A stretch of 10,508 bases of DNA, taken from assembly GCA_029210545.1 (NCBI GenBank), contig JARGFV010000089.1, positions 1-10,508 of the forward strand, read 5' to 3'. Positions 7,033 through 7,561 of this stretch are shown one piece after another; the first letter of the stretch is position 1; each line of letters starts with the position of its first letter. Made by a program: the position numbers and the translations under genes. This DNA is from a bacterium (GTDB lineage: Bacteria > BMS3Abin14). Under the pieces are notes generated by a model. The model saw only the letters and a program-made list of their open reading frames with translations, did no database searches and was not told the origin of the DNA.

Positions 7033-7053
7033 GGGTCCGGGGTCCGGGGTCTA
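7033..7053. repeat. 7-bp tandem array (GGGTCCG)3 upstream of the cyclase-family gene
   Basis: GGGTCCG, GGGTCCG and GGGTCTA follow without gaps. The last unit runs into the CTAG at the left edge of the palindromic element at 7051-7298. Confidence 0.75.
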
Positions 7054-7298
7054 GCCCGCATTATTCATGATGCAAATGAGATGTCCGCTAACTGTTTGGC
7101 AATTAAAGATAAATGGGAATGGCACTATAAGCATCATGAATCAGGCGGGGTTGAGCGGACATAGTCACGAGAGGAGTTTTTCGTTCCGGCAAGGCGACTG
7201 AGGAGTGAGCGCGGAGGCATACTTTAGTATTCCGCACAAGCGAACGACTCAGCAACGCCGCCGGAACGGAAAAGAACCTCGTGAATAGTCCGGGCTAG
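7051..7298. mobile_element. Palindromic MITE-like element with terminal inverted repeats
   Basis: The ends are CTAGCCCG (7051-7058) and CGGGCTAG (7291-7298); similarity continues inward (CATTATTCATGA against the complement of CGTGAATAGTC). The right half (7165-7284) is a long imperfect hairpin with paired blocks TCACGAG/CTCGTGA, CGTTCCGGC/GCCGGAACG, CTGAG/CTCAG, GCGGA/TCCGC and ATAC/GTAT at the tip. The left half has two interleaved inverted pairs: 7055-7073 with 7131-7150 (17 or so of 19 matched) and ATGTCCGCT (7081-7089) with AGCGGACAT (7154-7162). There is no transposase gene. The outer CTAG at both ends may be a 4-bp target duplication. Non-autonomous mobility is inferred; a structured RNA is the alternative. 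Confidence 0.6.
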
Positions 7299-7327
7299 CA
7301 ACGTGTCGGACTTTACCGACACGTTGC
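7298..7327 (+). terminator. Perfect 12-bp hairpin, possible plus-strand terminator
   Basis: GCAACGTGTCGG (7298-7309) and its exact complement (7316-7327) flank the loop ACTTTA. On the plus strand GATGAGTTTTTCG follows, a late and short T-run. It sits right against the palindromic element and may belong to it. No plus-strand gene ends here, so a terminator role is doubtful. Confidence 0.35.
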
Positions 7328-7512: not shown

Positions 7513-7561
7513 TTGATAGAGTCGCAAAAAGTCCAGGCGAGACTTTTTGCGAGTCCATCAA
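7513..7561. repeat. Hairpin repeat, family 1 (copy B), just after degP
   Basis: Arms TTGATAGAGTCGCAAAAAGTC (21 bases, given here as positions 7513-7533) and 7541-7561 match at 19 of 21 positions around a 7-base loop. It is the most complete copy of the family and begins four bases after the degP stop codon. It shares about 35 of 36 bases with copy A in the opposite orientation. Confidence 0.8.

Follow-up and report, generated by a model that had tools for sequence, protein, structure and literature searches.

Introduction

Insertion sequences of the IS1380 family (NF033539 / PF13701) have terminal inverted repeats of 16–21 bp and a target-site duplication of 4–5 bp; elements of 1561 and 1718 bp, for example, have IR of 16/16 and 21/18 and DR of 4 and 5, respectively (PMC4133298). 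IS1380 has been used as an outgroup to the piggyBac superfamily, in which CCC opens the terminal repeats and TTAA, or its variants TTAG and CTAA, is duplicated at the target (PMC10813416). Prokaryotic miniature transposons (MITEs), such as Correia elements and TIMEs, are short, non-coding, intergenic sequences of high copy number, the terminal repeats of which resemble those of an intact transposon (PMC10969869, PMC4133298). IS1380 is absent as a parent family from a 2024 review of prokaryotic MITEs, and our literature search found no description of an IS1380-derived MITE and no report of the end sequence studied here in a transposon context. In the TIME-COMP elements of Pseudomonas, two miniature elements move together as a larger unit via their outer ends, with kilobases of genes enclosed between two copies of one Tn3-type MITE (PMC4133298).

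Here we describe an element at positions 7051–7298 of a 10,508-nucleotide stretch of bacterial DNA, the whole of which is referred to as the window. This region is one copy of a dispersed, gene-less 248-bp element composed of two miniature transposons joined end to end. It resembles IS1380 insertion sequences in that nearly identical ends were found on three intact IS1380 elements in this analysis, but it has no transposase gene, consists of two modules, and measures 248 bp rather than about 1.65 kb. With piggyBac it shares the CCC start and a YTAR duplication (CTAG, TTAG, CTAA, CTAT), although it is bacterial, has no transposase inside, and has a target preference centred on CTAG. It differs from other prokaryotic MITEs in its parent family, IS1380, and from TIME-COMPs in being made of two different MITEs that abut directly and have a common 4-bp site.

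Extent and structure of the element

The features of the window copy are as follows.

7051–7298, + strand: bipartite IS1380-type MITE, 248 bp including CTAG at each end, defined by its repeats in two genomes, an alignment of 19 copies and an empty site
7051–7054: left target-site duplication, CTAG
7055–7072, + strand: outer left terminal inverted repeat, CCCGCATTATTCATGATG
7051–7153, + strand: left module, a 103-bp MITE also found alone
7081–7089, + strand: Y, ATGTCCGCT, within the left module, its complementarity to Y′ being accidental
7132–7149, − strand: inner right terminal repeat of the left module
7150–7153: GTTG, a decayed CTAG common to both modules
7150–7298, + strand: right module, a 149-bp hairpin MITE, delimited by the two-module consensus alignment
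7154–7171, + strand: inner left terminal repeat of the right module, here AGCGGACATAGTCACGAG (consensus CCCGGACATAGTCACGAG), of which the first 9 nt are Y′
7165–7284, + strand: imperfect hairpin of the right module, about 120 bp
7278–7294, − strand: outer right terminal inverted repeat, CCCGGACTATTCACGAG as read on that strand
7295–7298: right target-site duplication, CTAG

The CTAG-bounded ends begin at 7051 with CTAGCCCG and finish at 7298 with CGGGCTAG. A repeat finder detected an inverted pair, X, at 7050–7073 and 7131–7154 (24 nt, 83% complementary), and a right-hand stem at 7177–7190 and 7260–7273. Compared with shuffled sequences, the element region folded with z = −7.2 as RNA and −5.8 as DNA; the right-module hairpin, located by the repeat finder and by folding, had an interior z of −6.9. 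No ORF of 80 aa or more was present inside the 248-bp element, which has the size (below about 300 bp) and the absence of a transposase gene that characterize MITEs. The first-pass annotation of this DNA had described terminal inverted repeats within CTAG, a right-hand hairpin of about 120 bp, inverted pairs interleaved in the order X-Y-X′-Y′, and a lack of coding capacity, and all of these are properties of the sequence at 7051–7298.

Directly to the right of the element, the window (7298–7327) contains a perfect 12-bp hairpin (GCAACGTGTCGG/CCGACACGTTGC) followed by a T-rich stretch. A similar hairpin was observed at the matching place beside the copy in locus L005 (1750 onwards), so that in both cases insertion took place at the base of a terminator-like repeat of one kind. 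The copy in L006 (677–924) is embedded centrally in palindromic sequence, CACGTCATTAGCT-CTAG-CTAATGACGTG, which hints that hairpins or palindromes are preferred as targets.

Copies and target sites

In the genome from which the window derives (G000), about 42 full or partial matches were detected, eight of them whole or nearly whole in length, and many were located at contig ends, where the assembly broke. A relative of the same family but another genus (G003) contained 12 full copies. No copy of the 248-bp element was found in 59 other genomes searched; likewise, the exact end was absent from viral contigs and the 248-bp element from a plasmid collection. The end motif (CTAKCCCGNNNTATTCA) had 53 occurrences in the own genome and 43 in G003, as opposed to 0 for the reversed control; these counts and the matches in both genomes reveal the dispersed, high copy number typical of MITEs. 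The flanks of the copies differed, and all full copies spanned CTAG to CTAG or a near variant. The first-pass annotation had named the lack of a second copy anywhere, together with the lack of compensatory changes in homologous sequences, as the outcome that would speak against its reading; many further copies were found.

Empty sites with a single CTAG, which that annotation had proposed as a check, were sought by joining the flanks of G003 copies with one CTAG and searching for the product in congeners. Contig C81 of congener G011 carries the uninterrupted orthologous site of G003 copy L049, with a single CTAG (GGCTTCTAGTGGG), where the occupied site reads GGCTC-CTAG-[element]-CTAG-TGGAG. 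The insertion site of a second copy, L047, was also uninterrupted in G011 and in G008. Copy L036 has CTAT at both ends, and elements in other genomes are flanked by TTAG/TTAG (three times) or CTAA/CTAA (five times). Since CTAT, TTAG and CTAA are not palindromic, their presence at both ends indicates duplication of a 4-bp target and not merely a palindrome belonging to the element. Together with the one-CTAG empty site, these sequences constitute the 4-bp target-site duplication of an IS1380-type MITE, and the same evidence underlies the assignment of both CTAG motifs of the window copy.

Two subfamilies, distinguished by CAAATG or GTGATG in the left interior, were present in both genomes. The closest copies between the two genera were 97–98% identical, whereas the few insertion-site gene fragments that can be compared between these genera were 68–79% identical. 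This difference in sequence identity suggests that the copies were not inherited vertically but were exchanged recently or acquired from a common recent source.

IS1380 as the parent family

Genomes holding these repeats were searched for IS1380 transposases with PF13701 and then NF033539. Intact IS1380-family transposases enclosed by nearly identical ends (CCCGGATTATTCATGA) were present in three unrelated genomes, namely G073 (L249, 501–2151, 1651 bp, encoding a 447-aa transposase), G101 (L296, 101–1755) and G096 (L298, 4–1706). The ends of these elements differed from the end consensus by 1–3 mismatches per end. The L249 transposase scored 409 bits against the IS1380 equivalog NF033539 (cut-off 180), and PF13701 scored 517 bits on an IS1380 transposase with these ends. 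The same ends adjoin IS1380 remnants in several more loci. Because its ends are common to intact IS1380 elements, the 248-bp element is an IS1380-type MITE. The palindromic MITE suggested at first is borne out by the many copies, the one-CTAG empty site, the 4-bp duplication and the IS1380-type ends.

No IS1380 transposase with matching ends was detected in the own genome or in G003; the own assembly is fragmented, with many contigs ending inside the repeat, and a collapsed helper transposase may therefore be absent from the contigs. MITEs of this type usually, but not necessarily, coexist with such a helper in one genome. The IS1380 genes of G000 and G003 have other ends (CCCCARAATC...), and the genes of the own lineage were rejected as the helper for this reason. 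A second IS1380 group with CCCCARAATC-type ends was observed in G007, G000 and G003 (L080, L081, L082, L259) and is degraded in the latter two; in L259 (G003), an element of this type is inserted in a right module. Within the phylum, the right end was found on only one longer element, L054 of G007, which runs off its contig and is a candidate full IS1380 with CTAGCCCGGATTATTCATGA ends. Long end pairs considered as autonomous copies in G062 and G066 were discarded, the former enclosing a peptidase gene and the latter other, non-transposase ORFs. Ends on Persicobacter plasmids were also dismissed as a possible full element, one being a gene-less 222-bp MITE; no transposase lay beside the ends examined.

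Two modules and their junction

The left 103 bp occur alone as a complete MITE, terminating in CATCATGAATTATGCGGGCTAG, in both G000 and G003 (L015, 1501–1603; L237, 175–277; L262, 133–235; L266, 126–228). The inner right terminal repeat of this module, which is CCCGCATAATTCATGATG in G003 and in the solo form, has a consensus identical to the outer left repeat at 17 of 18 bases. It is followed by CTAG in the solo elements and by GTTG in all 19 composites aligned. Beyond this site, the inner left repeat of the right module agrees with the outer repeat in 16 of 17 bases, one base being inserted, a score reached by 0 of 2000 shuffles. The composite thus reads ...CATCATGAATTATGCGGG-GTTG-CCCGGACATAGTCACGAG..., in which the left MITE finishes with its right end, followed by the decayed CTAG and by the left end of a second MITE; the right end of this second MITE is the outer end CTCGTGAATAGTCCGGGCTAG. 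The module lengths are consistent with this layout (103 + 149 − 4 = 248). The occurrence of the GTTG junction in all 19 aligned full-length copies indicates that the fusion happened once and that the pair was then amplified as a unit.

A different origin, in which a single 248-bp MITE arose by a one-step deletion inside a longer IS1380 element and its inner repeats are due to chance or are internal transposase-binding sites, would agree with the junction being common to all copies and with the right module, which was not found alone in G000 or G003 and the left arm of which occurs there only in composite context. We regard this origin as unlikely, given that the left module is a complete, solo-occurring MITE that ends exactly at the junction, that the inner left end is so close to the outer end, and that another adjacent pair of MITEs has a common CTAG. 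The latter, L003 on contig C6 of G000, is an independent case, in which a further short copy adjoins a 248-bp copy at a shared CTAG, across a short assembly gap.

The arrangement as two fused MITEs also revises the nested structure initially envisaged, in which a palindromic MITE was interrupted by a second element of about 90 bp with ends ATGTCCGCT/AGCGGACAT: the modules are placed head to tail. A 90-bp element bounded by Y and Y′ was rejected, since that interior also occurs in solo left MITEs and Y′ is what remains of a terminal repeat; as the left 103 bp occur alone as a complete MITE, Y is part of the ordinary interior of the left module. Of the two halves that were to be searched for separately, only the left was recovered on its own in G000 and G003.

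A distinct repeat family, TTGATGACTTTTTGCGAAGTCATCAA, follows the first ~60 bases of the left MITE and replaces its remainder at many loci of the own genome; the sequence GACTTTTTGCGAGTCCATCAA, at about 7520–7560 of the window and in L239–L243, L269 and L274–L276, belongs to this family.

The Y/Y′ pair and the RNA interpretation

In the window copy, Y and Y′ (AGCGGACAT, 7154–7162) form a perfect 9-nt inverted pair interleaved with X, and a structured RNA had been offered as the other explanation of the element. When sequences were shuffled, a perfect inverted pair of at least 9 nt arose in 7% of cases for the whole element and in 2% for the left region; the pair alone is therefore mildly unusual. 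In most copies, ATGTCAGCT or ATGTGAGCT stands in place of Y, and many copies have CCCGGACAT or TCCGGACAT in place of Y′. Pair 36–107 of the Y/Y′ helix is formed in 2 of the 19 copies, and all nine pairs only in the window copy. These sequence comparisons indicate that the apparent pseudoknot is accidental, Y′ being an inner terminal repeat that has decayed.

A pseudoknotted, structured non-coding RNA kept for a function at this locus would account for a region that folds far better than shuffles, as do the interiors of 18 of 25 unrelated relatives (z below −2), yet such folding is explained by a palindromic MITE, and the copies are dispersed with different flanks. The covariance analysis proposed in the first-pass annotation yielded no two-sided change in the Y/Y′ helix among the 19 aligned copies, and one such change, in one cell, among 48 pairs in all helices. 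Moreover, Rfam gave no match at the gathering threshold or at E up to 1. On these grounds the pseudoknotted RNA was rejected, and we consider it very improbable. This case is a caution against taking interleaved inverted repeats in raw sequence for an RNA pseudoknot, as they can instead be the fused ends of transposons.

Proposed origin and movement

Transposition by Y1 (RAYT) enzymes makes no target duplication. A REP/BIME-like repeat moved by such a transposase, although likewise palindromic, intergenic and of high copy number, and with a GTAG tag that the CTAG ends recall, is scarcely credible here, because the element has true, linear terminal inverted repeats in place of GTAG-footed hairpin ends, its individual ends are not hairpins, the 4-bp duplications include TTAG, CTAA and CTAT, and the same ends flank IS1380-family DDE transposases.

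Most probably, the element is a non-autonomous miniature transposon that depends for movement on an IS1380-family (DDE) transposase acting in trans, the 248-bp unit having arisen from two fused MITEs. We infer the IS1380 transposase as the mover, the order of events, movement as DNA, and a role for the hairpin that is at most secondary. In the proposed scheme, the transposase would recognise both outer ends (CCCGSAYTATTCAYGA) and cut out or copy the element, and insertion at a YTAR site, mostly CTAG, would duplicate that site. The 149-bp hairpin MITE would have inserted into, or recombined onto, a CTAG flanking the 103-bp MITE; subsequent changes may have turned the common CTAG into GTTG and added a base to the inner left end of the second MITE. 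Afterwards, the outermost ends would have been used together, so that the pair multiplied as one 248-bp unit. In this manner, the boundary between two adjacent MITEs could disappear, leaving a single larger mobile unit, which would be a stepwise route to bigger non-autonomous elements.

The same ends in other phyla

A scan of 85 thousand genomes with TAGCCCGGANTATTCATGA, in which phyla were assigned by record title, detected at least 119 loci, compared with about 7 expected by chance as estimated from the collection size. The matches listed include Planctomycetota, Nitrospirota, Acidobacteriota, Myxococcota, deltaproteobacteria, Gammaproteobacteria, Eisenbacteria, Zixibacteria, Armatimonadota, Rokubacteria, Bacteroidota and others; among them, about a dozen phyla contain diverse palindromic elements with these ends, and the paired ends are 32–293 bp apart and enclose no gene. 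When the ORFs recurring beside the ends at the 119 loci listed were compared, no transposase family emerged. The interiors are of unrelated sequence and mostly palindromic, the median fold z over 25 clusters being −3.3. What appears is a very widespread, apparently unnamed group of bacterial palindromic repeats tied to the IS1380 family, with piggyBac-like end and target rules.

It is conceivable, though we hold this only tentatively, that ends of the TAGCCCGGAYTATTCATGA type mark one undescribed IS1380/piggyBac-like MITE superfamily, which extends over about a dozen phyla and in which unrelated interiors are kept palindromic. If this were true, it would point to an involvement of the hairpin itself in spreading or regulation, and to frequent passage of the elements from one phylum to another.

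The apical 7-mer GGCGTAC was found in 6 of 25 clusters, where 0.4 are expected; this recurrence is only suggestive, because the maximum reached by some 7-mer in shuffles averages 6.0. GGCGTAC...GTACG(T/C) is present in the apical loop in many hairpin MITEs that are otherwise unrelated (L108–L226), and the right module in the window has GGAGGCATACTTTAGTATTCC at the corresponding place. In addition, L154, L214, L217 and L226 are 32-bp solo palindromes of the TAGCCCGGATTATTCATGAATAATCCGGGCTA type, which consist of two terminal repeats without an interior and are possibly leftovers after loss of the inner hairpin.
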